From Bartonella sp. DGB1 (GTDB lineage: Bacteria > Pseudomonadota > Alphaproteobacteria > Rhizobiales > Rhizobiaceae), in contig NZ_CP166769.1 in assembly GCF_041345015.1 (NCBI RefSeq), positions 1,240,001 through 1,304,000 of the forward strand: a DNA stretch of 64,000 bases. The letters are read 5' to 3'. The notes beneath the pieces are model-generated. The model saw only the letters and a list, made by a program, of their open reading frames with translations. It searched no databases and was not told the origin of the DNA. The position numbers were made by a program, and so were the translations under genes. Each line of letters starts with the position of its first letter. Within the stretch, counting starts at the first letter, position 1. Shown here piece after piece: positions 1 to 21,484 of the stretch.

Positions 1-1
1 A

Positions 2-2500
2 ACTGTGGGTAGCACTATTTACGCATTTAATAATTCTGATAGCGTGATTATTGGTAGTCGAACTACTACTAACGGCTACAGTCATGCTCCTACTTCTCGT
101 CAAACAATCATCGGTTATAAGAATGATCACAAATATGGTAAAGCTTCACGCACTATTTCTCCAGCATCTTTCACTACATTAGGTGCCAATATTGTTTTTG
201 ATATTAGAAGCACGGAGAACAGTGTTGTCCTTGGAGCAGGTTCAACTATAGAGACTGGTCAATCTGACGTTGTGTCTTTTGGTAAAAAAGGATCAGAACG
301 AATATTAACTAATATCGCTGCGGGAGCACATGATAATGATGTTGTTACTTATGGTCAATTAAAAAATGACAATAATATATTTGATGGAATGCGTTTAAAT
401 TACACCGGTAATTTTAGTGCCTTAGGTAAAAAAATCCTCAACGTTGCTGATGGCAAACAGAATACAGATGCTATAAATGTAAAGCAAATGAAAGATTTTT
501 TCTCTAACGAGATTGTAACATCTTATCATGGGCCTGAACAAGACGGATGGTCGCATCGAAACGTCTTTATAAACTCTTCACACAAAAATAGAAATTCCTT
601 TTTCGGGGATAATGTTAATATAGGTTATAATATTATAGCTAAAAATTCTGCTAAAGATGTGAATCTTGGTACTAAGATACATTACGGAGACAAATTAAGT
701 CAGAACGTTAATATCGGTTTTAGCATTGCACCTAGAAATACCTCTAGTGATAAAGTGGACTCAACTAAACTAAGCAACATTAATTTGGGTGCTAATACTA
801 ACTCTAGTGCTGACTCTACAAAGAATAGTGTTGTGATTGGTCAGGGTTCCACTATAGATACTGATCAATCTGGCGTTGTGTCTTTTGGTAAAAAAGGATC
901 AGAACGAAGATTAACTAATATCGCTGCGGGAGCAGATGATAATGATGTTGTTAATATTTCACAACTAAAAAAATATACTTTTTATTATAATGGTAAAAAC
1001 TATAATGCTGAAAGCAAAAAAATCTCTAATGTTCTTGCAGGTACAGCGTCTAGTGATGCCATAAATTTTAAGCAAGTGAAACAATTTGTTAACTATGGTC
1101 AATTTAGTAGTAATGATGCGTCACCTAATAACAATATATTTGCTATTGGTAGTAAAAATAGTCATGAAGACAATAATCAAAATACTACGATAATAGGTAC
1201 TAATCAGAGTGCAGAGCAAGGGTATTTGTCTGGTAATCATGTTTCTATAGGTAGTAATATAACGGCGCGATATGTTTCTCTAGGAGCATTTATTGGCTCC
1301 AATAACACATTCTTTTACGATGAAGCTAATCTAGGTGTAAAAGGTGCCGCCACCTCTTACCAAGTGGTCATCGGTTCTTTCAATGATCCTACATACACAT
1401 ACACCGGAAAAGATATAGTACACAAACAAAATTCTGTTATATTAGGTAATAATATTTCTTTTGCGGCTAAAGCTGACTCTACAAAGAATAATGTTATCAT
1501 TGGTCATTATTCCACTATAGATACTGATCAATCTGGCGTTGTGTCTTTTGGTAAAAAAGGATCAGAACGAAGATTAACTAATATCGCTGCGGGAGCAGAT
1601 GATAATGATGTTGTTAATATTTCACAACTAAAAAAATATACTTTTTATTATAATGGTAAAAACTATAATGCTGAAAGCAAAAAAATCTCTAATGTTCTTG
1701 CAGGTACAGCGTCTAGTGATGCCATAAATTTTAAGCAAGTGAAACAATTTGTTAACTATGGTCAATTTAGTAGTAATGATGCGTCACCTAATAACAATAT
1801 ATTTGCTATTGGTAGTAAAAATAGTCATGAAGACAATAATCAAAATACTACGATAATAGGTACTAATCAGAGTGCAGAGCAAGGGTATTTGTCTGGTAAT
1901 CATGTTTCTATAGGTAGTAATATAACGGCGCGATATGTTTCTCTAGGAGCATTTATTGGCTCCAATAACACATTCTTTTACGATGAAGCTAATCTAGGTG
2001 TAGAAGGTGCCGCCACCTCTTACCAAGTGGTCATCGGTTCTTTCAATGATCCTACATACACATACACCGGAAAAGATATAGTACACAAACAAAATTCTGT
2101 TATATTAGGTAATAATATTTCTTTTGCGGCTAAAGCTGACTCTACAAAGAATAATGTTATCATTGGTCATTATTCCACTATAGATACTGATCAATCTGGC
2201 GTTGTGTCTTTTGGTAAAAAAGGATCAGAACGAAGATTAACTAATATCGCTGCGGGAGCAGATGATAATGATGTTGTTATTTATAAACAGTTAATAGATA
2301 GATTTACTGCTGTTAAGCCAATGGTATTAAATGCAAAAGGTTGCTTTGATGCAAATAGTAAAGCAATCTATAATCTAGGTGATGCTAAGGCTGATAATGA
2401 TGCTATCAATGTAAAACAACTAAAAAGTACCGTAACCCAGATGGCGAGAAAAAAAAACTCCACACAGATAAAGATGCAAAATATCAGGCTAATATCTTAA
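2..2500 (+). CDS. Trimeric autotransporter adhesin 1, fragment A (5' end outside window)
   Basis: This is a surface adhesin of the BadA/YadA type, open at the left edge, so the signal peptide is not visible. The protein is a chain of YadA-head-like repeats (VVIG, SIGSNI and similar short hydrophobic strands) followed by necks such as VSFGKKGSERRLTNIAAG and a DAINxKQ segment. Codons 289-730 are two nearly identical 221-residue units. The ORF ends soon after an A9 run at 2449-2457. Adding one A there joins it to the next ORF in frame (after RKKK: LHTDKDAKYQANILIG), so this is one gene broken by a single-base indel. Family assignment is firm; the ligand is unknown. Confidence 0.85.
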   Translation, partial: TVGSTIYAFNNSDSVIIGSRTTTNGYSHAPTSRQTIIGYKNDHKYGKASRTISPASFTTLGANIVFDIRSTENSVVLGAGSTIETGQSDVVSFGKKGSERILTNIAAGAHDNDVVTYGQLKNDNNIFDGMRLNYTGNFSALGKKILNVADGKQNTDAINVKQMKDFFSNEIVTSYHGPEQDGWSHRNVFINSSHKNRNSFFGDNVNIGYNIIAKNSAKDVNLGTKIHYGDKLSQNVNIGFSIAPRNTSSDKVDSTKLSNINLGANTNSSADSTKNSVVIGQGSTIDTDQSGVVSFGKKGSERRLTNIAAGADDNDVVNISQLKKYTFYYNGKNYNAESKKISNVLAGTASSDAINFKQVKQFVNYGQFSSNDASPNNNIFAIGSKNSHEDNNQNTTIIGTNQSAEQGYLSGNHVSIGSNITARYVSLGAFIGSNNTFFYDEANLGVKGAATSYQVVIGSFNDPTYTYTGKDIVHKQNSVILGNNISFAAKADSTKNNVIIGHYSTIDTDQSGVVSFGKKGSERRLTNIAAGADDNDVVNISQLKKYTFYYNGKNYNAESKKISNVLAGTASSDAINFKQVKQFVNYGQFSSNDASPNNNIFAIGSKNSHEDNNQNTTIIGTNQSAEQGYLSGNHVSIGSNITARYVSLGAFIGSNNTFFYDEANLGVEGAATSYQVVIGSFNDPTYTYTGKDIVHKQNSVILGNNISFAAKADSTKNNVIIGHYSTIDTDQSGVVSFGKKGSERRLTNIAAGADDNDVVIYKQLIDRFTAVKPMVLNAKGCFDANSKAIYNLGDAKADNDAINVKQLKSTVTQMARKKNSTQIKMQNIRLIS
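868..2193 (+). repeat. 663-bp tandem duplication inside adhesin 1
   Basis: Two adjacent 663-bp units, 868-1530 and 1531-2193, are almost identical over their whole length, with partial third-copy sequence after 2193. I noticed one coding difference: GVKGAA in the first copy and GVEGAA in the second. The length is a multiple of three, so the reading frame is kept and the adhesin gains 221 residues per copy. The near identity indicates recent duplication or gene conversion. Confidence 0.9.
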
Positions 2501-2589
2501 TAGGGGTTACAAAAAAAGAATTTACTGGTTCTGGTGGATATAATGTTAATATCGGTAACTATATTGACGATTTTAATGGTAAGAAAAGT

Positions 2590-4374
2590 GTGAATATTGG
2601 TGCTCAAATACAGGATGATAGCAAAAGTATTCAGAATGTTAATATCGGTTATTATATTGTAAATGGACTAAAAGCAACTCCTGATAATCCAGAGACTGCA
2701 AAATCTTCTGTTGCTTTAGGTGCTAACATTTATGCCCAACATCCAGGCACAGAAATGATTGTTGTCATTGGTGAATCGTCAACGGTAGCCAAGAATCAAT
2801 CCAAGGTTGTTTCTTTTGGTGGAAAAGGCTCAGAGCGTAGATTAACTAATATCGCTGCAGGAATAAACGATTCTGATCTGATTACTTATAGACAGTTATT
2901 AGATAGACTAGACGCTACTAAGCCAATAGTATTAAATAAAAAAGGTTACTTTGATGCAAATGGTCAAGCAATCTCTAATCTAGCTGATGCTAAAACTGAC
3001 ACAGATGCTATCAATGTAAAACAGCTAAAAAATACTATAAACTCGATGTCACGTGAGGACAGACGTCACGTATCAATAGGTTCAAAGGCTAGTTCTTTCC
3101 GTAAAGATAATGTTTATTTAGGTAGAGATATCACAAATGATTATGGAGCTGTAAGCACTATTATTGGCAATAAAATTATTAACGATGATTTTCGTATTGG
3201 TAATACTAGTATAGGTCATAACATTATAAGTGGCATAAAAGAGCATAAGAAAACAGAAGTTTACCGCAAAGATGGTGTTTATTTAGGAGCTAATATTAAC
3301 GCTGGCGCTGAAGATACAAGACGTAGTATTGTCATTGGTAGCAATTCAATACTGGAAAAAAATCAATCTAATGTTGCATCTTTTGGTAAAAAACAATCAG
3401 AACGTAAATTAACGAATGCTGCCCCTGGAACAGCTAATGATAATGCTGCTATTATATCACAAATAAAAGAATATGCCCTTTATCATAATGGTAAAAATTA
3501 TGATGCTAAAGGAAAAAAAATCTCAAATGCACCTGCAGATTCAGCGATTAATAGTGCTGTTAACATGAAACAATTAAATGAATTTGCTATCTATTTTGAT
3601 GAATCTAGCTATAGAGCTTTAAATAAATCTATTGCTAAAGTAAAAGATGGCTCATCTGAAAATCATGCTATCAATGTTGGTCAAATAAATAAAAAAGAAG
3701 AAAAGTTTATTTCTTCAATTAAAACAGATATCAAAGATAATATTGAACATGATAAAATAAGAGATACCGCTCTCAAAATTATGAATGAGACAACTAATCC
3801 TATAGCAAATAAGATTATCACTAACACAATTGAAGAAGCTCTACCGGGTCTATTAGCCAAGGTAATTGATGAAAAAACAGCGGCTGGAACCCCGCATGAT
3901 ATAAATAAAACTTTGTTATCAGTAAAAGTTTATGATGCTAAAAACACAAAAATCTCTAATTTAGCTGATGCGAACATCAATTCTGATGCAGATGCAGTAA
4001 ATGTAAGAACCGCTAAATTATTAATTAACACAAATGTTAAATCTCGTTTAGGTACAATCGGTGCTCATCACGATAAATCCATAACCATTGGTGATAATGC
4101 TAGCACAAGTGGTGCTGATTCTATCGCTATAGGTAGCATCGCTAAAACCAAAAAGGAGAATTCCCTATCATTTGGTAATAATGCTAGCGCTGCAAATGGT
4201 GGTATAGCTATTGGTAACAATTCTTCAGCTGATAGTAATGAGGTTAGCTTTGGTAATAGCAATCTACAACGCAAATTAGTTAACATTGCTAACGCTAAAT
4301 CTGATACCGATGTAATTAATGTTGGGCAATTAAAGGATAATATTATTTACTCTGATGGTGTGAAAAAAATATAG
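2590..4374 (+). CDS. Trimeric autotransporter adhesin 1, fragment B
   Basis: Continuation of the same adhesin in another frame. The GTG at 2590 is only the first start codon after the frame change; coding continues upstream in this frame to the A9 run at 2449. It carries head repeats, necks (ERRLTNIAAG, ERKLTNAAPG, QRKLVNIANA) and a stalk-like helical stretch around residues 350-430. It ends at a TAG just after an A7 run at 4363-4369. Dropping one A joins it to the next ORF through YSTASKKKIAYVIPGTEATD, which matches the family pattern. There is no ribosome-binding site at 2590, so independent translation is unlikely. Confidence 0.82.
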   Translation: MNIGAQIQDDSKSIQNVNIGYYIVNGLKATPDNPETAKSSVALGANIYAQHPGTEMIVVIGESSTVAKNQSKVVSFGGKGSERRLTNIAAGINDSDLITYRQLLDRLDATKPIVLNKKGYFDANGQAISNLADAKTDTDAINVKQLKNTINSMSREDRRHVSIGSKASSFRKDNVYLGRDITNDYGAVSTIIGNKIINDDFRIGNTSIGHNIISGIKEHKKTEVYRKDGVYLGANINAGAEDTRRSIVIGSNSILEKNQSNVASFGKKQSERKLTNAAPGTANDNAAIISQIKEYALYHNGKNYDAKGKKISNAPADSAINSAVNMKQLNEFAIYFDESSYRALNKSIAKVKDGSSENHAINVGQINKKEEKFISSIKTDIKDNIEHDKIRDTALKIMNETTNPIANKIITNTIEEALPGLLAKVIDEKTAAGTPHDINKTLLSVKVYDAKNTKISNLADANINSDADAVNVRTAKLLINTNVKSRLGTIGAHHDKSITIGDNASTSGADSIAIGSIAKTKKENSLSFGNNASAANGGIAIGNNSSADSNEVSFGNSNLQRKLVNIANAKSDTDVINVGQLKDNIIYSDGVKKI

Positions 4375-4468
4375 TACTGCTAGTAAGAAGAAGATAGCTT
4401 ATGTTATCCCAGGTACAGAAGCTACGGATGCCGCTACAATAACTAATTTAAATGAAGCTATAAAAGAA

Positions 4469-6505
4469 TTGAATACAACTATAGATAACAAGTTTAGTAA
4501 TTCTATGATTTTAAATGGAGAAGGTTTTAATGCGCGTAGTAAAAATATCGTTAAAGTCACCAAAGGTACAGAAGCTACGGATGCCGCTACAATAACTAAT
4601 TTAAATGAAGCTATAAAAGAATTGAATACAACTATAGATAACAAGTTTAGTAATTCTATGATTTTAAATGGAGAAGGTTTTAATGCTCAAAGTAAAAAAA
4701 TCTCCAATGTAAGTGATGCTACTTTTGAAACAGATATAGTGAATGTACGAACAGCTAAATCATTAATTAGCACACGTGTTGAAACTCGTTTGAGTAAAGT
4801 TAATGAAAAATCTCATAAAAAAGCTTTAGTAATTGGTAGTAATGCTTTAGTAAATCATGCTACTGGTATAGCAATAGGTGCCAGTGCTAAAGCAAGAGGT
4901 AATAATGCCGTAGCAGTTGGCAATAATGCTAGTGCTACAAATGGTGGTATAGCTATTGGTAACAATTCTTCAGCTGATGATAGTAATGAGGTTAGCTTTG
5001 GTAAAAGCAATCTACAACGCAAATTAGTTAACATTGCTAAAGGTATGAATAATACTGATGTAATTAATATTGAACAACTAAATAACTCTGCCATTTATCT
5101 TAATAATGATGCTTATTCTGCTATAGATCAAATAATTTCTAATGTTGCACCAGCTAAAAATAGAGATGATGTTATCAATGTAAAACAATTAAATGAGTTT
5201 GCTCCTTATTATAATGATAAAGCCTATAATGCTATTAATAAGAATATTACTAATGTAAAAGATGGTTTGTCTAAAGATGATGCTATCAATGTTGGTCAAG
5301 TAAATAGTAAAGAAAGAGAGCTTTTTTATTCAATTAAAAAAGATGTTAAAGATGAGATTGGAAATGATCGAGTAGAAGAACTCACTAAAAAACTGTTCAC
5401 AGATAATCTCATACATCCTCTGGCAGATCAATTGATCACTGAGATTCTTAACAAAAAAGCCTCTTATATTTTAAACAGCATAATTGATGAAGAAACATCT
5501 AACTATAAAGAATACTCGGTAAATAAGACATTATTATTAGTAAATAAATCTGGTAAATCAGGTGAATCACTTAAATTTTATGATGCTAAAAATTCCATAA
5601 TCTCCAACCTAGAAGATGCTAAAACTGACACAGATGCAGTAAATGTAAAAACAGCTAAATCATTAATTAACAAAAACGTTGAAACTCGTTTAGGTAAAAT
5701 CAATGAAAAATCTATTGAAGGAGCTTTAGTCATTGGTAATAATGCTTTGGCAGATCATATTAATGCTATAGCAATAGGTAATGCCGCCTCGGCTAAAGAT
5801 GAAAATTCATTAGCATTTGGTAATGATGCTAATGCTCAAGCGGGGGGTATAGCTATAGGTAATAACTCTTTCGCTAATGGTAATGTAGTTAGCTTTGGTC
5901 AGAAAGGGCTAGAACGTCGATTAACTAATGTTGATAAAGGTATAAATGATACTGATGTAATTAATATTGAACAACTAAATAACTATGCTCTTTATCATGA
6001 TGGTAAAAATTATGATGGTAAAAATAAAAAAATCTCTAATGTCGCTAAAGGTGAAAAAGATAATGACGCAGCTACATTAGCTAATCTTAATCATGATAAA
6101 GAAAAACTTGAGCAAGATATAGCGGTGATATCGAGTGATTTCCTAGTCTTAACAGATAATGCTTTTAGTTCTGAATATAAACGCATTTCCAACCTAGCTG
6201 ATGCTAAACATGAAACAGATGCAGTAAATCTAAAAACAGCTGAATCATTAATTAATGAAAATCTTAAATCTCGTTTAGGTGAAGTTAATGAGCATCCAGT
6301 CGCCATAGCAATTGGTAATAACACTAATACAAATCATTCTACTTCTATCGCCATAGGTAATGCCGCCTCGGCTAAAGATGAAAATTCATTAGCATTTGGT
6401 AATGATGCTAATGCTCAAGCGGGGGGTATAGCTATAGGTAATAACTCTTTCGCTAATGGTAATGTAGTTAGAGCTTTGGTAAGAAAGGGCTGGAACGTCG
6501 ATTAA
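4469..6505 (+). CDS. Trimeric autotransporter adhesin 1, fragment C
   Basis: Third segment of the adhesin. Coding in this frame begins at the A7 run near 4370; the listed ATG is internal. It opens with a duplicated EAIKELNTTIDNKF stalk segment and then enters cassettes with IAIGNN head strands and an LERRLTNVDKGINDTD neck. It ends because of an extra AG at 6470-6473: gttagagctttgg here, gttagctttgg in every sister cassette. Removing the two bases restores the standard VVSFGKKGLERRLTN and joins fragment D. The direct comparison with identical neighbouring copies makes the indel certain at sequence level. Confidence 0.83.
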   Translation: MNTTIDNKFSNSMILNGEGFNARSKNIVKVTKGTEATDAATITNLNEAIKELNTTIDNKFSNSMILNGEGFNAQSKKISNVSDATFETDIVNVRTAKSLISTRVETRLSKVNEKSHKKALVIGSNALVNHATGIAIGASAKARGNNAVAVGNNASATNGGIAIGNNSSADDSNEVSFGKSNLQRKLVNIAKGMNNTDVINIEQLNNSAIYLNNDAYSAIDQIISNVAPAKNRDDVINVKQLNEFAPYYNDKAYNAINKNITNVKDGLSKDDAINVGQVNSKERELFYSIKKDVKDEIGNDRVEELTKKLFTDNLIHPLADQLITEILNKKASYILNSIIDEETSNYKEYSVNKTLLLVNKSGKSGESLKFYDAKNSIISNLEDAKTDTDAVNVKTAKSLINKNVETRLGKINEKSIEGALVIGNNALADHINAIAIGNAASAKDENSLAFGNDANAQAGGIAIGNNSFANGNVVSFGQKGLERRLTNVDKGINDTDVINIEQLNNYALYHDGKNYDGKNKKISNVAKGEKDNDAATLANLNHDKEKLEQDIAVISSDFLVLTDNAFSSEYKRISNLADAKHETDAVNLKTAESLINENLKSRLGEVNEHPVAIAIGNNTNTNHSTSIAIGNAASAKDENSLAFGNDANAQAGGIAIGNNSFANGNVVRALVRKGWNVD

Positions 6506-9500
6506 CTAATGTTGATAAAGGTATAAATGATACTGATGTAATTAATATTGAACAACTAAATAACTATGCTCTTTATCATGATGGTAAAAATTATGATGGT
6601 AAAAATAAAAAAATCTCTAATGTCGCTAAAGGTGAAAAAGATAATGACGCAGCTACATTAGCTAATCTTAATTATTATAAAGGAGAACTTGAGCGACGTA
6701 TAGCTAATGTTATGCATGGAGCTCTAGTCTTAACAGATGATGCTTTTAGTTCTGAATATAAACGCATTTCCAACCTAGAAGATGCTAAACATGAAACAGA
6801 TGCAGTAAATGTAAAAACAGCTGAATCATTAATTAATGAAAATCTTAAATCTCGTTTAGGTGAAGTTAATGAGCATCCAGTCGCCATAGCAATTGGTAAT
6901 AACACTAATACAAATCATTCTACTTCTATCGCCATAGGTAATGCCGCCTCGGCTAAAGATGAAAATTCATTAGCATTTGGTAATGATGCTAATGCTCAAG
7001 CGGGGGGTATAGCTATAGGTAATAACTCTTTCGCTAATGGTAATGTAGTTAGCTTTGGTAAGAAAGGGCTGGAACGTCGATTAACTAATGTTGATAAAGG
7101 TATAAATGATACTGATGTAATTAATATTGAACAACTAAATAACTATGCTCTTTATTATGATGGTAAAAATTATGATGGTAAAAATAAAAAAATCTCTAAT
7201 GTCGCTAAAGGTGAAAAAGATAATGACGCAGCTACATTAGCTAATCTTAATCATGATAAAGAAAAACTTGAGCAAGATATAGCTGATGTTATGCATGGAG
7301 CTCTAGCCTTAACAGATGATGCTTTTAGTTCTGAATATAAACGCATTTCCAACCTAGCTGATGCTAAACATGAAACAGATGCAGTAAATCTAAAAACAGC
7401 TGAATCATTAATTAATGAAAATCTTAAATCTCGTTTAGGTGAAGTTAATGAGCATCCAGTCGCCATAGCAATTGGTAATAACACTAATACAAATCATTCT
7501 ACTTCTATCGCCATAGGTAATGCCGCCTCGGCTAAAGATGAAAATTCATTAGCATTTGGTAATGATGCTAATGCTCAAGCGGGGGGTATAGCTATAGGTA
7601 ATAACTCTTTCGCTAATGGTAATGTAGTTAGCTTTGGTAAGAAAGGGCTGGAACGTCGATTAACTAATGTTGATAAAGGTATAAATGATACTGATGTAAT
7701 TAATATTGAACAACTAAATAACTATGCTCTTTATCATGATGGTAAAAATTATGATGGTAAAAATAAAAAAATCTCTAATGTCGCTAAAGGTGAAAAAGAT
7801 AATGACGCAGCTACATTAGCTAATCTTAATTATTATAAAGGAGAACTTGAGCGACGTATAGCTAATGTTATGCATGGAGCTCTAGTCTTAACAGATGATG
7901 CTTTTAGTTCTGAATATAAACGCATTTCCAACCTAGAAGATGCTAAACATGAAACAGATGCAGTAAATGTAAAAACAGCTAAATCATTAATTAACAAAAA
8001 CGTTGAAACTCGTTTAGGTAAAATCAATGAAAAATCTATTGAAGGAGCTTTAGTCATTGGTAATAATGCTTTGGCAGATCATATTAATGCTATAGCAATA
8101 GGTAATGCCGCCTCGGCTAAAGATGAAAATTCATTAGCATTTGGTGATGATGCTAATGCTCAAGCGGGGGGTATAGCTATAGGTAATAACTCTTTCGCTA
8201 ATGGTAATGTAGTTAGCTTTGGTAAGAAAGGGCTGGAACGTCGATTAACTAATGTTGATAAAGGTATAAATGATACTGATGTAATTAATATTGAACAACT
8301 AAATAACTATGCTCTTTATTATGATGGTAAAAATTATGATGGTAAAAATAAAAAAATCTCTAATGTCGCTAAAGGTGAAAAAGATAATGACGCAGCTACA
8401 TTAGCTAATCTTAATCATGATAAAGAAAAACTTGAGCAAGATATAGCTGATGTTATGCATGGAGCTCTAGCCTTAACAGATGATGCTTTTAGTTCTGAAT
8501 ATAAACGCATTTCCAACCTAGCTGATGCTGAACATGAAACAGATGCAGTAAATGTAAAAACAGCTAAATCATTAATTAACAAAAACGTTGAAACTCGTTT
8601 AGGTAAAATCAATGAAAAATCTATTAAAGGAGCTTTAGTCATTGGTAATAATGCTTTGGCAGATCATATTAATGCTATAGCAATAGGTAATGCCGCCTCG
8701 GCTAAAGATGAAAATTCATTAGCATTTGGTAATGATGCTAATGCTCAAGCGGGGGGTATAGCTATAGGTAATAACTCTTTCGCTAATGGTAATGTAGTTA
8801 GCTTTGGTAAGAAAGGGCTGGAACGTCGATTAACTAATGTTGATAAAGGTATAAATGATACTGATGTAATTAATATTGAACAACTAAATAACTATGCTCT
8901 TTATTATGATGGTAAAAATTATGATGGTAAAAATAAAAAAATCTCTAATGTCGCTAAAGGTGAAAAAGATAATGACGCAGCTACATTAGCTAATCTTAAT
9001 CATGATAAAGAAAAACTTGAGCAAGATATAGCTGATGTTATGCATGGAGCTCTAGCCTTAACAGATGATGCTTTTAGTTCTGAATATAAACGCATTTCCA
9101 ACCTAGAAGATGCTGAACATGAAACAGATGCAGTAAATCTAAAAACAGCTGAATCATTAATTAATGAAAATCTTAAATCTCGTTTAGGTGAAGTTAATGA
9201 GCATCCAGTCGCCATAGCAATTGGTAATAACACTAATACAAATCATTCTACTTCTATCGCCATAGGTAATGCCGCCTCGGCTAAAGATGAAAATTCATTA
9301 GCATTTGGTAATGATGCTAATGCTCAAGCGGGGGGTATAGCTATAGGTAATAACTCTTTCGCTAATGGTAATGTAGTTAGCTTTGGTAAGAAAGGGCTGG
9401 AACGTCGATTAACTAATGTTGATAAAGGTATAAATGATACTGATGTAATTAATATTGAACAACTAAATAACTATGCTCTTTATTATGATGGTAAAAATTA

Positions 9501-9540
9501 TGATGGTAAAAATAAAAAAATCTCTAATGTCGCTAAAGGT
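5600..9540 (+). repeat. ~580-bp head/neck cassette array in adhesin 1
   Basis: The motif aatgtagttag recurs at about 5881, 6461, 7041, 7621, 8207, 8791 and 9370, giving a period of about 580-586 bp. Cassettes alternate irregularly between two head variants and are otherwise nearly identical at DNA level. Each contains a G6 run. Parts of the same cassette also occur in adhesin 2. Confidence 0.9.
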
Positions 9541-10745: not shown

Positions 10746-10799
10746 ATGATATTGGAAGTTTTATGGTATAAATATGTTTTATATTACTTAAGTAATGTA

Positions 10800-10827
10800 T
10801 TTACTTTATTTCTAAATATGCTAATAT
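10800..10827 (+). promoter_or_regulatory. Candidate promoter for adhesin 2
   Basis: A -35-like TTTACT (10800-10805) and a -10-like TAATAT (10822-10827) are separated by 16 bp. A perfect 14-bp palindrome, attacttaagtaat (10783-10796), lies just upstream and could be an operator. A Shine-Dalgarno-like aggaaag precedes the ATG at 10918. AT-rich background makes chance matches common. Confidence 0.4.
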
Positions 10828-10917
10828 AATAAATAGTTATTAGTATATATAAGTATAGTACCAGTATATCATGTACCTTCGAATACGAGAATAGATGACT
10901 AAACTAGGAAAGTTAAG

Positions 10918-13900
10918 ATGAAAAAAGATTCAATATCTGTAAAGATTTCTAAGAAATTACAAAAAATTTTATTAGGCAGTACGGTTTTAACAACTTCGAT
11001 TTTTATTAATCCTTTACAAGTTGTTAGTGCGCCCTTAAATACTGAGACTAATAAGTTAGATGTTAAAAATAATCATGATATCAAGACTTATCGTATTTTG
11101 TCTAATCTTCTATTAACCGGCATCTCAGCAAAAACTCACGCGTCATCTTCGTTCCCATTAAATCCATTAAGTGCGAGTTCTGCGGTTTTTGTCAATAAGC
11201 GAAATTCCGATGTTGCTAGTCCTAGAACCGCTTTTAACTCAGTTGACAAAAAACAACTAGCAATAAAGCTTAGTAATTTATTAGCAAATAAAGAGATAAT
11301 CATTGATACCCGCGTTAGTACTAATAGTTATCTGGATATTAATACAAATATGATAAATATTGCTAAAAGTACTACAGCTACTAGTGATGAATTAGCCGAT
11401 GTACAATTAAATTCTGCACCTGCAAGTATTAGTGAAGAAACCCTGATCTCTGATGAGTGTTTTGAGAATGTAAAAAATTCTCAAATTCAGCCTAATAACC
11501 AAAACGCTGTTTATAATAAAGATCTAATTACTTATAATCACCTAATGAGGGGTAACGCTATTAAGGACAGTTCCTTAGCTTATGGTTTTCAATCTACGGC
11601 CAGTGGAACTAGTTCTATAGTAGTGGGTGCGTATGCAACCTCTGGAAACACCAATAATGCCGTCGCTATTGGTTATTATTCTTCTGTAACCGCCGATCAA
11701 TCTATAGCGGTTGGCACAGAATCTTCTTCTTCAAAAAAAGATTCTGTGGCTATTGGTTATAATGCACAAACAACTGCTCCATCGGCTGTATCTTTGGGGG
11801 CACATGCAAGAGCTGCTTATGAAAATTCTGTAGCTATTGGAACAAGGTCTATTACTAGCGATAAAGATGAAGTTAGCTTTGGTAATTCAACTGTTAAACG
11901 CAGACTAACTAATGTCGCTGGCGGTATAAAGGATAGTGATGCTGCTACTTATGGTCAGCTAAGAGAGACTGTTCAAAATATTCTGATGTGGGATAATATA
12001 ACTAGAAGCTATAATGCTAAAAACAAAAGAATTACTAATCTCGCTAATGGTGTAATGGAAAATGATGCCGCTACTTATAGTCAGTTAGTTGCTTTAACTT
12101 ATAGTGGTTCTTCTAAAAAGGAGGGAACGCTGGCTTTTGGTCGTTCAGCTATTGCCGAAGGAGCCAGAACTACAGTGATAGGTGTAGAAGCAGAAGCTAA
12201 AAGTGCTAATAATGCTGTGGCTGTTGGTTTTAAGGCTTATGCGATAGCTGACGGATCTGTAGCGATTGGTGCGCGTTCTGGAGCCTCAAAAAACAATTCT
12301 ATAGCTATAGGTTATAACTCTATTGCTAATGCTGATGATTCTATAGCTTTAGGTGCACAAGCAAAGGCGCTTAGAAACAATTCTATAGCTATAGGTTATA
12401 ACTCTGTTGCTAGCGCTGATAATGTAGTTAGCTTTGGTAGCTTGGATATCAAACGTAAGTTAGTTAATGTGTCTGCAGGTACAAATGATACTGATGCCGC
12501 CACTTATGGTCAGTTGAAAAACGCAGTTAGTGATATTCTAACAGCAGCTGGCAGCCCTGGCTTTAACGCAAGAAATAAAAATATCTCTAACATTGCTGCA
12601 GGTAAACAAGGTAGTGATGCTGCTACTTATGGTCAGTTGATGTACGGTAACGCTACTGGTCAAGATTCCTTAGCTTATGGTGATAAATCTATTGCTGCCG
12701 GAAAACGCTCAACAGTAGTAGGTGTAGAAGCAACCTCTGGAAACACCGATGATGCTGTAGCTATTGGCTATAAGGCTAATGCAGGCTACGGAGCTGTAGC
12801 GGTTGGTTCCGAATCTCAATCCACGGGTAGAAATTCTATTGCTTTAGGTTATAAATCAAAATCTTCGATGGACGACGCTATAAGTTTAGGTGCATATGCA
12901 CATGCTAAACATAAAGATTCTGTAGCTATTGGATCCCATTCTACTACTGGAGCTAATAATGTAGTTAGCTTTGGTTCCCAAAATATTAAACGTAAGTTAG
13001 TTAATGTAGCTGCAGGTACAAATGATACTGATGCTGCTACAATCGCTAATTTAAATGAGAAATTTGCTAATACTATAAAATTAGAGAATAATTACTTTAA
13101 TGCTAAAGATAACAAAATCTCTAATCTTGCTGCAGGTACAAATGACACTGATGCTGTTACTTATGGTCAATTGATGTACGGTAACGCTACTGGTCAAGAT
13201 TCCTTAGCTTATGGTGATAAATCTATTGCTGCCGGAAAACGCTCAACAGTAGTAGGTGTAGAAGCAACCTCTGGAAACACCGATGATGCTGTAGCTATTG
13301 GCTATAAGGCTAATGCAGGCTACGGAGCTGTAGCGGTTGGTTCCGAATCTCAATCCACGGGTAGAAATTCTATTGCTTTAGGTTATAAATCAAAATCTTC
13401 GATGGACGACGCTATAAGTTTAGGTGCATATGCACATGCTAAACATAAAGATTCTGTAGCTATTGGATCCCATTCTACTACTGGAGCTAATAATGTAGTT
13501 AGCTTTGGTTCCCAAAATATTAAACGTAAGTTAGTTAATGTAGCTGCAGGTACAAATGATACTGATGCTGCTACAATCGCTAATTTAAATGAGAAATTTG
13601 CTAATACTATAAAATTAGAGAATAATTACTTTAATGCTAAAGATAACAAAATCTCTAATCTTGCTGCAGGTACAAATGACACTGATGCTGTTACTTATGG
13701 TCAATTGATGTACGGTAACGCTACTGGTCAAGATTCCTTAGCTTATGGTGATAAATCTATTGCTGCCGGAAAACGCTCAACAGTAGTAGGTGTAGAAGCA
13801 ACCTCTGGAAACACCGATGATGCTGTAGCTATTGGCTATAAGGCTAATGCAACTACCGGAGCTGTAGCGGTTGGTTCCGAATCTCAATCCACGGGTAGAA

Positions 13901-14490
13901 ATTCTATTGCTTTAGGTTATAAATCAAAATCTTCGATGGACGACGCTATAAGTTTAGGTGCATTTGCAACAGCTACACATAAAAATTCTATAGCTATTGG
14001 ATCCCTTTCCACTACTCAAGCTGAGAATGAAGTTAGCTTTGGTTCCCAAAATATTAAACGTAAGTTAGTTAATGTAGCTGCAGGTACAAATGATACTGAT
14101 GCCCTTACTTATGGTCAGTTTAAGGAACAAATTGGTAAAGTTCTAACATTAAATGATAAATCATTTTTTAATGCTAAAGATAACAAAATCTCTAATCTTG
14201 CTGCAGGTACAAATGATACTGATGCTGTTACTTATGGTCAATTGATGTACGGTAACGCTACTGGTCAAGATTCCTTAGCTTATGGTGATAAATCTATTGC
14301 TACCGGAAAACGCTCAACAGTCGTGGGTGTGGAGGCAACCTCTGGAAACACCGATGATGCTGTAGCTATTGGCTATAAGGCTAATGCAACTACCGGAGCT
14401 GTAGCGGTTGGTTCCGAATCTCAATCCACGGGTAGAAATTCTATTGCTTTAGGTTATAAATCAAACTTCGATCGATGGACGACGCTATAA
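10918..14490 (+). CDS. Trimeric autotransporter adhesin 2, N-terminal fragment
   Basis: Start of the second giant adhesin. Residues 1 to about 38 form a long signal peptide: basic KKDSISVKISKKLQK, a hydrophobic core, then a probable cut near VVSA. An aggaaag Shine-Dalgarno supports this ATG. From residue about 205 the protein is YadA-head repeats (SIAVG, AVAIGY, AISLGA) with necks KRRLTNVAGG and KRKLVNVAAG. Four cassettes of 534-537 bp follow from 12640. The ORF ends after a small rearrangement near 14465-14475, where tcaaacttcgatcgatgg replaces the tcaaaatcttcgatgg of the sister units (net +2). Removing the net change joins it to the next ORF. Confidence 0.88.
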   Translation: MKKDSISVKISKKLQKILLGSTVLTTSIFINPLQVVSAPLNTETNKLDVKNNHDIKTYRILSNLLLTGISAKTHASSSFPLNPLSASSAVFVNKRNSDVASPRTAFNSVDKKQLAIKLSNLLANKEIIIDTRVSTNSYLDINTNMINIAKSTTATSDELADVQLNSAPASISEETLISDECFENVKNSQIQPNNQNAVYNKDLITYNHLMRGNAIKDSSLAYGFQSTASGTSSIVVGAYATSGNTNNAVAIGYYSSVTADQSIAVGTESSSSKKDSVAIGYNAQTTAPSAVSLGAHARAAYENSVAIGTRSITSDKDEVSFGNSTVKRRLTNVAGGIKDSDAATYGQLRETVQNILMWDNITRSYNAKNKRITNLANGVMENDAATYSQLVALTYSGSSKKEGTLAFGRSAIAEGARTTVIGVEAEAKSANNAVAVGFKAYAIADGSVAIGARSGASKNNSIAIGYNSIANADDSIALGAQAKALRNNSIAIGYNSVASADNVVSFGSLDIKRKLVNVSAGTNDTDAATYGQLKNAVSDILTAAGSPGFNARNKNISNIAAGKQGSDAATYGQLMYGNATGQDSLAYGDKSIAAGKRSTVVGVEATSGNTDDAVAIGYKANAGYGAVAVGSESQSTGRNSIALGYKSKSSMDDAISLGAYAHAKHKDSVAIGSHSTTGANNVVSFGSQNIKRKLVNVAAGTNDTDAATIANLNEKFANTIKLENNYFNAKDNKISNLAAGTNDTDAVTYGQLMYGNATGQDSLAYGDKSIAAGKRSTVVGVEATSGNTDDAVAIGYKANAGYGAVAVGSESQSTGRNSIALGYKSKSSMDDAISLGAYAHAKHKDSVAIGSHSTTGANNVVSFGSQNIKRKLVNVAAGTNDTDAATIANLNEKFANTIKLENNYFNAKDNKISNLAAGTNDTDAVTYGQLMYGNATGQDSLAYGDKSIAAGKRSTVVGVEATSGNTDDAVAIGYKANATTGAVAVGSESQSTGRNSIALGYKSKSSMDDAISLGAFATATHKNSIAIGSLSTTQAENEVSFGSQNIKRKLVNVAAGTNDTDALTYGQFKEQIGKVLTLNDKSFFNAKDNKISNLAAGTNDTDAVTYGQLMYGNATGQDSLAYGDKSIATGKRSTVVGVEATSGNTDDAVAIGYKANATTGAVAVGSESQSTGRNSIALGYKSNFDRWTTL

Positions 14491-14780
14491 GTTTAGGTGC
14501 ATTTGCAACAGCTACACATAAAAATTCTATAGCTATTGGATCCTTTTCTACTACTGAAGCTGAGAATGAAGTTAGCTTTGGTAACAAAAATTTAAAACGT
14601 AAGTTAGTTAATGTAGCTAAAGGTACAGATGATACTGATGCTGTAACATTAGCTAATTTAAATGAGAAATTTGCTAATACTATAAAATTAGAGAATAATT
14701 ACTTTAATGCTAAAGATAACAAAATCTCTAATCTTGCTGCAGGTACAAATGACACTGATGCTGTTACTTATAGTCAATTG
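12640..14780 (+). repeat. 534-bp cassette array in adhesin 2
   Basis: The start of the unit (atgtacggtaacgctactgg) recurs at 12640, 13174, 13708 and 14245, with a diverged copy at about 14781. Spacings are 534, 534, 537 and 536 bp. The first two full units are almost identical; the later ones exchange the HAKHKDSVAIGS segment for ATATHKNSIAIGS. The 536-bp spacing marks the frameshifted unit. Confidence 0.88.
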
Positions 14781-16481
14781 ATACGCGGTAACGCTACTGG
14801 TCAAGATTCCTTAGCTTATGGTGATAAATCTATTGCTGCCGGAAAACGCTCAACAGTAGTAGGTGTAGAAGCAACCTCTGGAAACACCGATGATGCTGTA
14901 GCTATTGGCTATAAGGCTAATGCAGGCTACGGAGCTGTAGCGGTTGGTTCAGGTGCTAAGGCCGGTTGGAGAAATTCTATAGCTATAGGTTATGACGCAG
15001 CCACTGCTGCTGAAGAATCTATAGCTATAGGTGTATCTGCACATGCTAAACATAAAGCTTCTGTAGCTATTGGATCCCATTCTACTACTGAAGCTGAAAA
15101 TGAAGTTAGCTTTGGTAACAAAAATTTAAAACGTAAGTTAGTTAATGTGGCTAAGGGTATAGGTGATACTGATGTAGCTACAATCGCTAATTTAAATGAG
15201 AAATTCGCTAATGCTCTAAAATTAAATAACAATGTCTTTGATGCTAATTATAAAAAAATCTCTAATGTGGCTAAAGGTGAAGAATATAATGATGTTGCTA
15301 CAATGGCTAATTTAACTGAGAGCCTTAGTAAAGCGCTAACTCATGATGGAGAAGTTTTTGATGCTAAAGGTAAAGTCATCAAAAATGTTGCTAAAGGTAC
15401 ACAGAATGATCACGTTGCTACAATCGCTAATTTAACTGATTCAGAAAAGAAAATTAACGAAAAAATAGATAAATCAAACAAGGAAATTAACCAGACTCTA
15501 AATCAGACAGTTGATACAGCTTTAGATGATGAAAGAGAAAAAATCAAAAAACAAACTACTGAACTCGTAACTAATTTAGCTAAGAAAGAATATACTGCTA
15601 ATAATCTGTCTAAGACATTTTCTCCAACGATTCATAAAGCGGTAGAGGACAAATTTAATAAATCTTTAACTTTAAATGATCAGGGTGTGTTTATTGCTCA
15701 AAATAAAAAGATCTCTAATTTAGCTGACGCAGATATCAATGCTAACGCAGATGCAATAAATGTAAGAACAGCTAAATCCTTGATTATACAAGAAATAAAT
15801 AAACGTTTGGGTGCGATTAATGAACAATCCGCTAATGGATCTTTAGTAATTGGTAGTGATATTCATACAGATCATACTACTAACATAGCGATTGGTAATA
15901 AATCTATCGCAAGAGGTAAAAATTCATTAGCATTTGGTAATGATGCTAATGCTCAAGCGGGGGGTATAGCTATAGGTAATAACTCTTTCGCTAATGGTAA
16001 TGTAGTTAGCTTTGGTAAGAAAGGGCTGGAACGTCGATTAACTAATGTTGATAAAGGTATAAATGATACTGATGCTGCAACATTAGCTAATTTAAATGAA
16101 AAATTTAAAGACACTCTATTTGTAGATGGCACAGGTAATTTTGATGCGAGACGTAAGAAAATATCTAATATAAAAGAAGGCACAGAGGATGGCGATGTTG
16201 CGACAATAGCTAACATAAATAAAGCTAAAGAAGGTCTTGAGCATATAATAAATAATAAATTAAACAATGAAACTATAATCTTAAATGGAAAAGATTTCGA
16301 TGCTAAAAATAAGAAAATATATAATGTAAAAGAAGGCACAGAGGATGGCGATGTTGCGACAATAGCTAACATAAATAAAGCTAAAGAAGGTCTTGAGCAT
16401 ATAATAAATAATAAATTAAACAATGAAACTATAATCTTAAATGGAAAAGATTTCGATGCTAAAAATAAAAAAAATATATAA
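14475..16481 (+). CDS. Trimeric autotransporter adhesin 2, fragment B
   Basis: Continues adhesin 2 after the net +2 change near 14470. The first residues (MDDAISLGAFATATHKNS) match the interior of the 534-bp unit, so the listed ATG is not a real start. It carries head repeats, then a long helical region (residues about 300-400: EKKINEKIDKSNKEINQTLNQTV and on) that looks like coiled-coil stalk, then a cassette shared with adhesin 1. It ends at an A8 run, 16467-16474. The parallel segment upstream reads aataagaaaatatat, so one A is extra and removing it joins the next ORF. Confidence 0.83.
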   Translation: MDDAISLGAFATATHKNSIAIGSFSTTEAENEVSFGNKNLKRKLVNVAKGTDDTDAVTLANLNEKFANTIKLENNYFNAKDNKISNLAAGTNDTDAVTYSQLIRGNATGQDSLAYGDKSIAAGKRSTVVGVEATSGNTDDAVAIGYKANAGYGAVAVGSGAKAGWRNSIAIGYDAATAAEESIAIGVSAHAKHKASVAIGSHSTTEAENEVSFGNKNLKRKLVNVAKGIGDTDVATIANLNEKFANALKLNNNVFDANYKKISNVAKGEEYNDVATMANLTESLSKALTHDGEVFDAKGKVIKNVAKGTQNDHVATIANLTDSEKKINEKIDKSNKEINQTLNQTVDTALDDEREKIKKQTTELVTNLAKKEYTANNLSKTFSPTIHKAVEDKFNKSLTLNDQGVFIAQNKKISNLADADINANADAINVRTAKSLIIQEINKRLGAINEQSANGSLVIGSDIHTDHTTNIAIGNKSIARGKNSLAFGNDANAQAGGIAIGNNSFANGNVVSFGKKGLERRLTNVDKGINDTDAATLANLNEKFKDTLFVDGTGNFDARRKKISNIKEGTEDGDVATIANINKAKEGLEHIINNKLNNETIILNGKDFDAKNKKIYNVKEGTEDGDVATIANINKAKEGLEHIINNKLNNETIILNGKDFDAKNKKNI

Positions 16482-19167
16482 CTTAGGCGATGCAGATCTA
16501 AACGAAGGTTTCACTGATGCAGTAAATATGAGGACTGCTAAATTATTAGTTGAACAAAACCTTGAAAACCGCTTAGGTCGGATATCTTCAAACTCTAATA
16601 AGAAAGCATTATTATTTGGTGATAATACCTGGGCAGATCATGATACTAGTATAACAATAGGTACTAACGCAGCAACTAAAGGTGAAAATTCCTTAGCATT
16701 GGGTCATGCATCTCGTGCTAGCCATGGTGGTATAGCAATAGGTGCTGAATCTATAGCTGATAGTAATGGAGTAGTTAGCTTTGGTCAGAAAGGGCTGGAA
16801 CGTCGATTAACTAATGTTGATAAAGGTATAAATGATACTGATGCTGCAACATTAGCTAATCTAAATGAGAAATTTGCTAATACTATAAAATTAGATGGAA
16901 ATGGCTTTGATGCTGGAGGTCAGAAAATCTCTAATGTACTTGCTGGTGAAGCTGATACTGATGTTGCTACAATAGCAGATGTAAATAGACATACAAAAGA
17001 GTTGGAGAAGAAGATACCTAAGTCCTTATTGACTGATGTTCTAAACCTAGACGAAAAAACAAATACCTATAATGCTAATGGTAACAAAATTTCTAATCTA
17101 GCTGATGCTGAACATGAAACAGATGCAGTAAATGTAAAAACAGCTAAATCATTAATTAACAAAAACGTTGAAACTCGTTTAGGTAAAATCAATGAAAAAT
17201 CTATTGAAGGAGCTTTAGTCATTGGTAATAATGCTTTGGCAGATCATATTAATGCTATAGCAATAGGTACTAACGCAGAAACTAAAGGTAAAAATTCATT
17301 AGCATTTGGTAATGATGCTAATGCTCAAGCGGGGGGTATAGCTATAGGTAATAACTCTTTCGCTAATGGTAATGTAGTTAGCTTTGGTAAGAAAGGGCTG
17401 GAACGTCGATTAACTAATGTTGATAAAGGTATAAATGATACTGATGCTGCAACATTAGCTAATCTAAATGAGAAATTTGCTAATACTATAAAATTAGATG
17501 GAAATGGCTTTGATGCTGGAGAGAAGCAAATTTCTAATGTCCTTGCTGGTGAAATTGATACTGATGTTGCTACAGTGTCTAATTTAAAACAACAAAGAAA
17601 ATCATTAGAACAAACCATAGAAAATGCGTTATCAAATAATATTTTACAGTTAGACAAAGAAACAAACTCCTATTATAATGCTAAAGGTAATAGAATCTCT
17701 AATCTAGCTGATGCTAAAACTGACACAGATGCAGTAAATGTAAAAACAGCTAAATCATTAATTAACAAAAACGTTGAAACTCGTTTAGGTAAAATCAATG
17801 AAAAATCTATTGAAGGAGCTTTAGTCATTGGTAATAATGCTTTGGCAGATCATATTAATGCTATAGCAATAGGTACTAACGCAGAAACTAAAGGTAAAAA
17901 TTCATTAGCATTTGGTAATGATGCTAATGCTCAAGCGGGGGGTATAGCTATAGGTAATAACTCTTTCGCTAATGGTAATGTAGTTAGCTTTGGTAATAAA
18001 GGGCTGGAACGTCGATTAACTAATGTTGATAAAGGTATAAATGATACTGATGCTGCAACATTAGCTAATCTAAATGAGAAATTTGCTAATACTATAAAAT
18101 TAGATGGAAATGGCTTTGATGCTGGAGGTCAGAAAATCTCTAATGTACTTGCTGGTAAAATTGATACTGATGTTGCTACAATAGCAGATGTAAATAGACA
18201 TACAAAAGAGTGGGAGAAGAAGATACCTAAGTCCTTATTGACTGATACTCTAAACCTAGACAAAGAAACAAACTCCTATTATAATGCTAAAGGTAATAGA
18301 ATCTCTAATCTAGCTGATGCTAAAACTGACACAGATGCAGTAAATGTAAAAACAGCTAAATCATTAATTAACAAAAACGTTGAAACTCGTTTAGGTAAAA
18401 TCAATGAAAAATCTATTGAAGGAGCTTTAGTCATTGGTAATAATGCTTTGGCAGATCATATTAATGCTATAGCAATAGGTACTAACGCAGAAACTAAAGG
18501 TAAAAATTCATTAGCATTTGGTAATGATGCTAATGCTCAAGCGGGGGGTATAGCTATAGGTAATAACTCTTTCGCTAATGGTAATGTAGTTAGCTTTGGT
18601 AAGAAAGGGCTGGAACGTCGATTAACTAATGTTGATAAAGGTATAAATGATACTGATGCTGCAACATTAGCTAATCTAAATGAGAAATTTGCTAATACTA
18701 TAAAATTAGATGGAAATGGCTTTGATGCTGGAGAGAAGCAAATTTCTAATGTCCTTGCTGGTGAAATTGATACTGATGTTGCTACAGTGTCTAATTTAAA
18801 ACAACAAAGAAAATCATTAGAACAAACCATAGAAAATGCGTTATCAAATAATATTTTACAGTTAGACAAAGAAACAAACTCCTATTATAATGCTAAAGGT
18901 AATAGAATCTCTAATCTAGCTGATGCTAAAACTGACACAGATGCAGTAAATGTAAAAACAGCTAAATCATTAATTAACAAAAACGTTGAAACTCGTTTAG
19001 GTAAAATCAATGAAAAATCTATTGAAGGAGCTTTAGTCATTGGTAATAATGCTTTGGCAGATCATATTAATGCTATAGCAATAGGTACTAACGCAGAAAC
19101 TAAAGGTAAAAATTCATTAGCATTTGGTAATGATGCTAATGCAAGCGGGGGGTATAGCTATAGGTAA
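16441..19167 (+). CDS. Trimeric autotransporter adhesin 2, fragment C (606-bp cassette array)
   Basis: Third segment of adhesin 2; real coding in this frame starts at the A8 run near 16470, so the first residues listed from 16441 are out of register. It has head/neck cassettes with DAVNVKTAKSLINKNVETRLG, ALVIGNNALADHINAIAIG, a shared AGGIAIGNNSFANGNVVSFG block and alternating stalk linkers (NLKQQRKSLEQTIENAL or DVNRHTKELEKKIPKSLL). It stops because TC is missing at 19142/19143: aatgcaagcgg here, aatgctcaagcgg in the other copies. Restoring TC joins the last ORF. Confidence 0.83.
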   Translation: MEKISMLKIKKIYNLGDADLNEGFTDAVNMRTAKLLVEQNLENRLGRISSNSNKKALLFGDNTWADHDTSITIGTNAATKGENSLALGHASRASHGGIAIGAESIADSNGVVSFGQKGLERRLTNVDKGINDTDAATLANLNEKFANTIKLDGNGFDAGGQKISNVLAGEADTDVATIADVNRHTKELEKKIPKSLLTDVLNLDEKTNTYNANGNKISNLADAEHETDAVNVKTAKSLINKNVETRLGKINEKSIEGALVIGNNALADHINAIAIGTNAETKGKNSLAFGNDANAQAGGIAIGNNSFANGNVVSFGKKGLERRLTNVDKGINDTDAATLANLNEKFANTIKLDGNGFDAGEKQISNVLAGEIDTDVATVSNLKQQRKSLEQTIENALSNNILQLDKETNSYYNAKGNRISNLADAKTDTDAVNVKTAKSLINKNVETRLGKINEKSIEGALVIGNNALADHINAIAIGTNAETKGKNSLAFGNDANAQAGGIAIGNNSFANGNVVSFGNKGLERRLTNVDKGINDTDAATLANLNEKFANTIKLDGNGFDAGGQKISNVLAGKIDTDVATIADVNRHTKEWEKKIPKSLLTDTLNLDKETNSYYNAKGNRISNLADAKTDTDAVNVKTAKSLINKNVETRLGKINEKSIEGALVIGNNALADHINAIAIGTNAETKGKNSLAFGNDANAQAGGIAIGNNSFANGNVVSFGKKGLERRLTNVDKGINDTDAATLANLNEKFANTIKLDGNGFDAGEKQISNVLAGEIDTDVATVSNLKQQRKSLEQTIENALSNNILQLDKETNSYYNAKGNRISNLADAKTDTDAVNVKTAKSLINKNVETRLGKINEKSIEGALVIGNNALADHINAIAIGTNAETKGKNSLAFGNDANASGGYSYR

Positions 19168-20000
19168 TAACTCTTTCGCTAATGGTAATGTAGTTAGCTT
19201 TGGTAATAAAGGGCTGGAACGTCGATTAACTAATGTTGATAAAGGTATAAATGATACTGATGCTGCAACATTAGCCAATTTAAATGAGAAATTTGCTGAT
19301 ACTATAAAATTTAAAAATGATCACTTTAATGCTAGAGGTCAGAAAATCTCTAATGTACTTGCTGGTGAAGCTGATACTGATGTTGCTACAATAGCAGATG
19401 TAAAGAGACATACAAAAGAGTTAAAAAATATAATGCCTAAATCCTTATTAGATAATAGTATGCAGTTAGACAAAGAAACAAACTCCTATTATAATGCTAA
19501 AGGTAATAGAATCTCTAATCTAGCTGATGCTAAAACTGACACAGATGCAGTAAATGTAAAAACAGCTAAATCATTAATTAACAAAAACGTTGAAACTCGT
19601 TTAGGTAAAATCAATGAAAAATCTATTGAAGGAGCTTTAGTCATTGGTAATAATGCTTTGGCAGATCATATTAATGCTATAGCAATAGGTACTAACGCAG
19701 AAACTAAAGGTAAAAATTCATTAGCATTTGGTAATGATGCTAATGCTCAAGCGGGGGGTATAGCTATAGGTAATAACTCTTTCGCTAATGGTAATGTAGT
19801 TAGCTTTGGTAATAAAGGGCTGGAACGTCGATTAACTAATGTTGATAAAGGTATAAATGATACTGATGCTGCAACATTAGCTAATCTAAATGAGAAATTT
19901 GCTAATACTATAAAATTAGATGGAAATGGCTTTGATGCTGGAGGTCAGAAAATCTCTAATGTACTTGCTGGTAAAATTGATACTGATGTTGCTACAATAG
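17100..20000 (+). repeat. 606-bp cassettes arranged as 1212-bp higher-order repeats
   Basis: The G6 marker of the cassette lies at 17331, 17937, 18543, 19147 and 19753: exactly 606 bp apart once the 2-base deletion near 19142 is allowed for. Linkers alternate: QQRKSLEQTIENAL, then RHTKEWEKKIPKSLL, then QQRKSLEQTIENAL again, then an RHTKEL version. The array therefore grew partly by copying a two-cassette (1212-bp) block. Confidence 0.88.
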
Positions 20001-21484
20001 CTAATCTAAATGAGAAATTTGCTAATACTATAAAATTAGATGGAAATAGCTTTGATGCTGGAGGCAAGCAAATTTCTAATGTCCTTGCTGGTGAAACTGA
20101 AACTGATGTTGCTACAATAGCTAATTTAAATAAAGCAGCTACGAATATCGAAGCTAAAATAGAGAATCAATATAACAGGGTAACTAAAAAACTAGAAGAC
20201 ATAATTACAAATAAATATGAAAAAGAGATTAAAATATCCTTAGATGAAACGATAAAAAAGAATGTAACTGATGATAAAATAACAAAAGCACTTAACGAAG
20301 TATTAACACCAAAAATAGCTGAGGCATTTGCTAATTCCTTAGCCTTAGACAAAGAAACAAACTCCTATTATAATGCTAAAGGTAATAGAATCTCTAATCT
20401 AGCTGATGCTGAACATGAAACAGATGCAGTAAATGTAAAAACCGCTAAATCATTAATTAACAAAAACGTTGTTGAAACTCGTTTAGGTAAGATCAATGAA
20501 GAATCTATTAAAGGAGCTTTAGTCATTGGTAATAATGCTTTGGCAGATCATATTAATGCTATAGCCATAGGTAATGCCGCCTCGGCTAAAGATGAAAATT
20601 CATTAGCATTTGGTAATAATGCTAATGCTCAAGCGGGGGGTATAGCTATAGGTAATAACTCTTTCGCTAATGGTAATGTAGTTAGCTTTGGCCAGAAAGG
20701 GCTGGAACGTCGATTAACTAACGTTGCTAAAGGTGAAGCTGATACTGATGCTGCTACAATCGCTAATTTTAGAGCAACAGGTCTGATTAATAAAGATGAT
20801 ATTACTCAATTAAAAAAAGAATTAGAAAACCTTAAGAAACATATACCTACACTTACAAAAGATGAAGACAATAAAGGTGTTTGGAATGCAGGAGAAACTA
20901 TTAAAGAAAAAGAAGATAGAGAAAATAAAGATAATAATAATCCAAGCCCAGGAACAGATACAGAATCTGATGGTTCGAATATATCTAAAAAGAAGATCAT
21001 ATCTGAAACAACAGGCAGTAGAGCTACCAATACCGACGCTCCGTCAGCAAGTGATAATAATGAAAAAAATAAAACTCCAGGTACACCAAGACGTATTACG
21101 AATATAGATGATGCTAAAGCTAGTAAAGACGGTGTTAATTTGCGTACATTTAAAAAAGAGCTGAAAAAGAGACAATTTGATAATAATATTGAAAGACTCA
21201 AAAGTGGTGTTGATGAACTAAAAACCGAAGTTGCTCAAATACGTGTTGAGGCAAGTCAAGCGGGTGCATTAGGTCTTGCGGTAGCTGGTTTAATCCATAG
21301 CACTGATCCTGGTTCTTTAAGTTTCTCTATTGGTACTGGTTATTGGCAGGCTGAAGGTGCTTTAGCCGCTGGTGTTAATTATACAACACCAAATGGTAGA
21401 ATAATATTTAAAGCGAGCGTAGCTTCTCCAGTCAAAAACTTCTCCCTAGGCGCTTCAGCTGGTATTGCTTTTAAAGTCTGGTAA
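19124..21484 (+). CDS. Trimeric autotransporter adhesin 2, C-terminal fragment with YadA anchor
   Basis: End of adhesin 2. The frame starts at the TC deletion near 19142; the ATG at 19124 is out of register with the gene. It continues 606-bp cassettes, has a stalk helix (residues about 345-420), a hydrophilic segment with PSPGTDTESDG (residues about 600-680), and a C-terminal YadA anchor: ASQAGALGLAVAGLIH, GSLSFSIGTGYWQAEGALAAG and beta strands ending in W. A strong terminator follows at 21509. Read together with the three upstream fragments it would give one adhesin of roughly 3500 residues. Confidence 0.88.
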   Translation: MVMMLMQAGGIAIGNNSFANGNVVSFGNKGLERRLTNVDKGINDTDAATLANLNEKFADTIKFKNDHFNARGQKISNVLAGEADTDVATIADVKRHTKELKNIMPKSLLDNSMQLDKETNSYYNAKGNRISNLADAKTDTDAVNVKTAKSLINKNVETRLGKINEKSIEGALVIGNNALADHINAIAIGTNAETKGKNSLAFGNDANAQAGGIAIGNNSFANGNVVSFGNKGLERRLTNVDKGINDTDAATLANLNEKFANTIKLDGNGFDAGGQKISNVLAGKIDTDVATIANLNEKFANTIKLDGNSFDAGGKQISNVLAGETETDVATIANLNKAATNIEAKIENQYNRVTKKLEDIITNKYEKEIKISLDETIKKNVTDDKITKALNEVLTPKIAEAFANSLALDKETNSYYNAKGNRISNLADAEHETDAVNVKTAKSLINKNVVETRLGKINEESIKGALVIGNNALADHINAIAIGNAASAKDENSLAFGNNANAQAGGIAIGNNSFANGNVVSFGQKGLERRLTNVAKGEADTDAATIANFRATGLINKDDITQLKKELENLKKHIPTLTKDEDNKGVWNAGETIKEKEDRENKDNNNPSPGTDTESDGSNISKKKIISETTGSRATNTDAPSASDNNEKNKTPGTPRRITNIDDAKASKDGVNLRTFKKELKKRQFDNNIERLKSGVDELKTEVAQIRVEASQAGALGLAVAGLIHSTDPGSLSFSIGTGYWQAEGALAAGVNYTTPNGRIIFKASVASPVKNFSLGASAGIAFKVW

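Follow-up and report, generated by a model that had tools for sequence, protein, structure and literature searches.

The chromosome of Bartonella sp. DGB1 carries an island of two paralogous giant trimeric autotransporter adhesin (TAA) genes resembling badA and vomp, in which cassettes have recombined and both genes are now broken, either decaying or in an OFF state; we put the probability of this reading at about 0.68. The window, by which we mean the whole stretch of 64,000 nucleotides that was analysed, covers positions 1,240,001–1,304,000 of a single contig (1,398,791 bp), and the genome is 99.5% complete by marker genes. Its nearest named relatives belong to the Bartonella/Brucella group. 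The host of the source bacterium ('Bartonella A/B. kongi') is the poultry red mite (PMC11550332), and no paper was found in a literature search for adhesins in Bartonella of Dermanyssus gallinae.

Two adjacent TAA loci were identified on the same strand. Locus 1 spans −1348..10745 (~12.1 kb), with its ATG at −1348, i.e., 1.35 kb upstream of the window, and locus 2 spans 10918..21484. The initial annotation had described loci of more than 10.7 kb and about 10.6 kb, each with a YadA-type anchor, and a signal peptide on the second. The anchors were recovered at both locus ends (Pfam YadA_anchor PF03895; 33.7 and 36.1 bits, cut-off 22.7), but locus 1 proved longer than described, and it also has a signal-peptide-like N-terminus, upstream of the window. 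The N-termini of the two loci are related and have KKL..LLGSTVLTT in common. The bodies consist of YadA heads, necks, and coiled stalks, with most fragments exceeding the cut-offs of PF05658 and PF05662 and with PDB matches to YadA-, BpaC-, UspA1-, EibD-, and SadA-type fibres, in agreement with the earlier description of loci built almost wholly from repeated head/neck/linker cassettes. Matches to Phage_T7_tail and other weak Pfam matches on the coiled-coil parts were judged spurious. By anchor and head/neck/stalk content, both loci are of the TAA type, working members of which would form a surface trimer that binds host matrix. The open reading frames (ORFs) are as follows:

−1348..2500, + strand, locus 1 ORF 1, signal-peptide-like N-terminus and neck/stalk repeats (1282 aa in all)
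2404..4374, + strand, locus 1 ORF 2, YadA stalk repeats
4367..6505, + strand, locus 1 ORF 3, heads and stalk
6475..9990, + strand, locus 1 ORF 4, heads and stalk
9957..10745, + strand, locus 1 ORF 5, YadA_anchor
10918..14490, + strand, locus 2 ORF 1, signal-peptide-like N-terminus, 12 YadA_head stretches, and 534-bp cassette array
14463..16481, + strand, locus 2 ORF 2
16441..19167, + strand, locus 2 ORF 3
19124..21484, + strand, locus 2 ORF 4, YadA_anchor

Within each gene, the cassette arrays have been duplicated and overwritten, and cassettes have also passed between the two genes; the signal-peptide and anchor ends, by contrast, have diverged. Exact direct repeats of 812, 681, 539, and 493 bp were found within a locus; the longest is represented by the locus 2 cassette copies at 17119 and 18331, which are identical over 812 bp. 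The locus 2 arrays have two periods, 534 and 606 bp. DNA-level identity between the two loci, claimed in the initial annotation, was confirmed: exact repeats reach 166 bp, and modules of ~360 bp share 94–95% DNA identity, compared with 54% for the anchors. The principal repeats and the inter-locus mosaic are listed below:

809–1616 vs 1472–2279, + strand, direct repeat of locus 1, 663 bp, 99.1% identical
5600..9556, + strand, locus 1 tandem array of ~580-bp head/neck/linker cassettes of two sub-types, 88–100% identical
16513..20018, + strand, locus 2 tandem array of 606-bp cassettes, 79–100% identical
20390..20750, + strand, locus 2 module with a right-hand block of locus 1 type (inter-locus mosaic)

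Variable sites are distributed in blocks. The central block is common to one locus 1 sub-type and all locus 2 copies, and the right-hand block is common to all locus 1 copies and the last locus 2 copy (20390). Runs of shared sites exceeded every permutation within each of the three arrays (300 shuffles each) and between the loci (1000 shuffles). The plain reading of these mosaics, which they support, is recombination within and between both genes after their divergence. The genome has intact recA and mutS. A G6 run, which is a long G-tract for a genome of 31% GC, recurs in 14 cassette copies (window positions 5842, 6421, 7002 ... 20635) and is a possible slippage site.

A change in cassette number was seen directly in two sister species of another Rhizobiaceae genus, in which an 825-bp cassette is present four and five times, respectively, in an orthologous tandem TAA:

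G026:C1:596001-628000 and G149:C1:2684001-2716000 (L136-L139), tandem giant TAAs with open frames

As in the island, each of these genomes has two adjacent same-strand TAAs (4708 and 1995 aa in G026; 4489 and at least 2130 aa in G149) with exact repeats (692 and 611 bp). Unlike the island, their frames are open, the neighbours share only ~69% DNA identity, and the site is different (~80 kb from herA in G026). Because the mosaics exceed all permutations, recA is intact, and cassette number has changed in these relatives, cassette recombination is supported as the mechanism, as judged for this species from one sequence; to this extent, the recombination reservoir proposed earlier is upheld. Unequal crossover and gene conversion, both RecA-dependent, would have operated at a time when the two genes still had open frames and specified long fibres on the surface of the mite symbiont.

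Neither gene is open from end to end: the reading frame shifts at seven breaks, leaving five ORFs in locus 1 and four in locus 2. Both genes are broken in the sequenced isolate, and the loci were classed as broken TAA genes and not as working adhesins; each would occupy a single frame only if the breaks were errors. The initial annotation had inferred adhesins of variable length and surface, which does not hold for the genes as assembled because in both loci the signal peptide and anchor lie on separate frames among several ORFs. The breaks are located as follows:

2449..2457, + strand, break 1, A9 tract in island-unique sequence
4363..4369, + strand, break 2, A7 tract with no near-identical copy in the island
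6470..6473, + strand, break 3, AGAG site in a repeated cassette, in one copy only
9966..9970, + strand, break 4, A5 tract in island-unique sequence
14467..14478, + strand, break 5, complex indel (doubled CGAT) in a repeated cassette
16467..16474, + strand, break 6, A8 tract with no near-identical copy in the island
19140..19152, + strand, break 7, beside a G6 run in a repeated cassette

Four of the seven breaks thus fall at A-tracts in non-repeated sequence and three inside repeats whose best copies are 97–99% identical. By analogy with the frameshifted badA of B. henselae, the four A-tract breaks are most likely real, which would mean that the genes are decaying or OFF. For the three breaks inside repeats, both a real origin and leftover assembly error are possible.

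The alternative that survives best, although we consider it unlikely, is that the two loci encode complete giant adhesins that are expressed, with every one of the seven breaks being an assembly error. The source genome was assembled from PacBio and PE150 Illumina reads with Canu, with polishing not described, and such assemblies tend to collapse or expand, or to retain indels, at exact tandem copies of 600–800 bp; short reads would have been unplaceable at the three breaks in repeats. The four breaks in sequence lacking near-identical copies and the 99.5% completeness of the genome argue against this explanation. As an error control, ~299 kb of this genome was compared with the ORFs of a Bartonella-group genome and named Bartonella loci. 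The aligned conserved coding sequence, 51.4 kb in all, showed no frameshift, the detection of simulated single-base insertions being 71%, and 15 A8–A9 tracts were intact in the control genes. Seven breaks in the 22.5-kb island against none in the 51.4-kb control would arise with a chance of ~0.001 at equal rates (our calculation), with the reservation that conserved genes are a biased error control, as dispensable genes break more easily. Uniform sequencing error behind all the breaks was not supported by this control and is unlikely, whereas errors confined to the repeats are possible. Given this bias, the difference between island and control speaks against uniform error but is no evidence for a special mechanism.

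The 7,493 codons of the loci contain no in-frame stop, whereas the 176–400 substitutions among cassettes predict ~5–15 nonsense changes in the absence of constraint. This lack of stops counts in favour of the all-error explanation. It also indicates that the frames were kept open during cassette divergence and that the breaks are young and later than that divergence, because no in-frame stop accumulated while the cassettes diverged. The pN/pS ratio among cassettes was 0.7–1.4 (counts small and non-independent); amino-acid change appears to have been loosely constrained or favoured, and purifying selection on residues looks weak.

A cluster of seemingly frame-broken ordinary genes was observed elsewhere in the window (27453–32608), comprising a calcineurin-like phosphoesterase (28066–28979), a cation-efflux protein (28981–29893), a glycine-betaine binding protein (30772–31742) and its permease (~31780–32608), and the sole copy of the peptidyl-tRNA hydrolase gene (pth), which has no standard in-frame start. 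These genes fit symbiont gene decay, while the sole pth may hint at a few indel errors in unique sequence, a point in favour of the all-error explanation.

A further alternative takes the A-tracts as contingency switches or polymerase-slippage sites that yield a full-length adhesin in a fraction of cells or transcripts. Every break in unique sequence is at an A-tract (A9, A7, A5, and A8), and phase variation of BadA, both single-base and by recombination, has been reported (PMC10936683). However, locus 1 would need three A-tracts to be correct simultaneously, errors would have to account for the three breaks in repeats as well, A5 and A7 offer little length for slippage, and A8–A9 tracts are common in this AT-rich genome, so that we regard such switching as improbable. 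We attach similarly little credence to a version in which the mite's nutritional symbiont keeps the island as a recombining cassette store, with rare full-length fibres produced via slippage at several A-tracts despite the broken appearance of the sequence. Tandem copies identical over 812 bp are a challenge for assembly, but an assembly artefact of one locus behind the tandem pair or its cassette number is highly improbable, as the N-termini differ, the anchors share 54% DNA identity, the cassette periods differ (580 vs 534/606 bp), and the pair has a single prs on one side and a single herA on the other, leaving only the within-array copy number in doubt.

The island is bounded upstream by prs, ending at −1869, and downstream by a gene for a herA-like ATPase; the two are convergent and occur once each. 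The downstream features are as follows:

21507..21541, + strand, strong hairpin followed by a U run, likely an intrinsic terminator after locus 2 (not flagged by the consensus scan)
21646..23250, − strand, herA-like ATPase, downstream bound of the island

In 18 Bartonella loci, prs and herA are convergent and adjacent, ~15 bp apart, with no TAA between them, and in Brucella-group loci their order is kept with 0.1–1.6 kb between. Since the Bartonella junction has no TAA, the island lies at a position left vacant in Bartonella, and orthology by position with a Bartonella TAA island was rejected. A search with herA gave no relative above ~57% identity. The 172 bp separating the two loci yielded no terminator, so the loci may be co-transcribed. 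Scans for sigma-70 promoters upstream of both loci performed no better than shuffles.

A search of the genome for further copies, as proposed in the initial annotation, revealed a third, intact TAA (contig 970.8 kb; 1309 aa; L006:5816-9742), but it has no DNA similarity to the island. It is adjoined by a type I restriction-modification cluster (L006:552-4714; contig 965.5–969.7 kb) with one specificity subunit and two tandem HsdM-like methylases (505 and 507 aa; ~68% DNA identity over 550 bp). Among 395 family genomes, nothing close to the N-terminal head of the island was found elsewhere, the best outside match being 41% over 92 residues. Tandem TAA pairs or triples are present in several other family genomes; in one Bartonella-group genome (G384), three TAAs lie in tandem, and neighbours match at 91% identity over a stretch of 1 kb. 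Two adjacent giant copies, regarded as unusual in the initial annotation, are not very unusual given these genomes, badA, and vomp.

The island is predicted to be non-functional as assembled. Adhesin islands of this kind are known; this one, with its unusual chromosomal site and both copies broken, is probably in decay or switched off. With it, the range of badA/vomp-like tandem adhesin islands comes to include a reduced, mite-dwelling relative of Bartonella, at a site that is empty in Bartonella, and the island may show loss in progress during a shift to obligate symbiosis. For giant repeat genes in long-read assemblies, the frame should be checked before adhesins are predicted.

The vomp locus of Bartonella quintana likewise consists of tandem conserved TAA genes, and their loss or variation alters the surface (PMC10936683). 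It has four genes compared with two in the island, and its variation has been seen in isolates, while that of the island is deduced from one sequence (PMC10936683). At the badA locus of B. henselae, highly repetitive TAA genes lie in tandem, and pseudogenes, frameshifts, and reshuffled domains have been described there (PMC8859334). Tandem giant TAA copies with reshuffled domains were also found here, as mosaics and exact repeats, and the island would work like a badA-type island, although its position does not match that of the Bartonella islands. Both islands have TAA genes of ~9–21 kb with repetitive neck/stalk arrays, and in both, frameshifts occur (in some isolates for badA) and reshuffling is deduced from repeats (PMC8859334). 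Also in common are pseudogene copies, which in the badA island lie beside the main gene (PMC8859334). However, badA is free of frameshifts in six of eight isolates (PMC8859334), whereas both copies are broken here. The surroundings also differ, with an ialB homologue downstream and ptsP ~10 kb upstream of badA (PMC8859334) in place of prs and herA. Finally, B. henselae infects cats and people, whereas the source bacterium of the island is a reduced mite symbiont.
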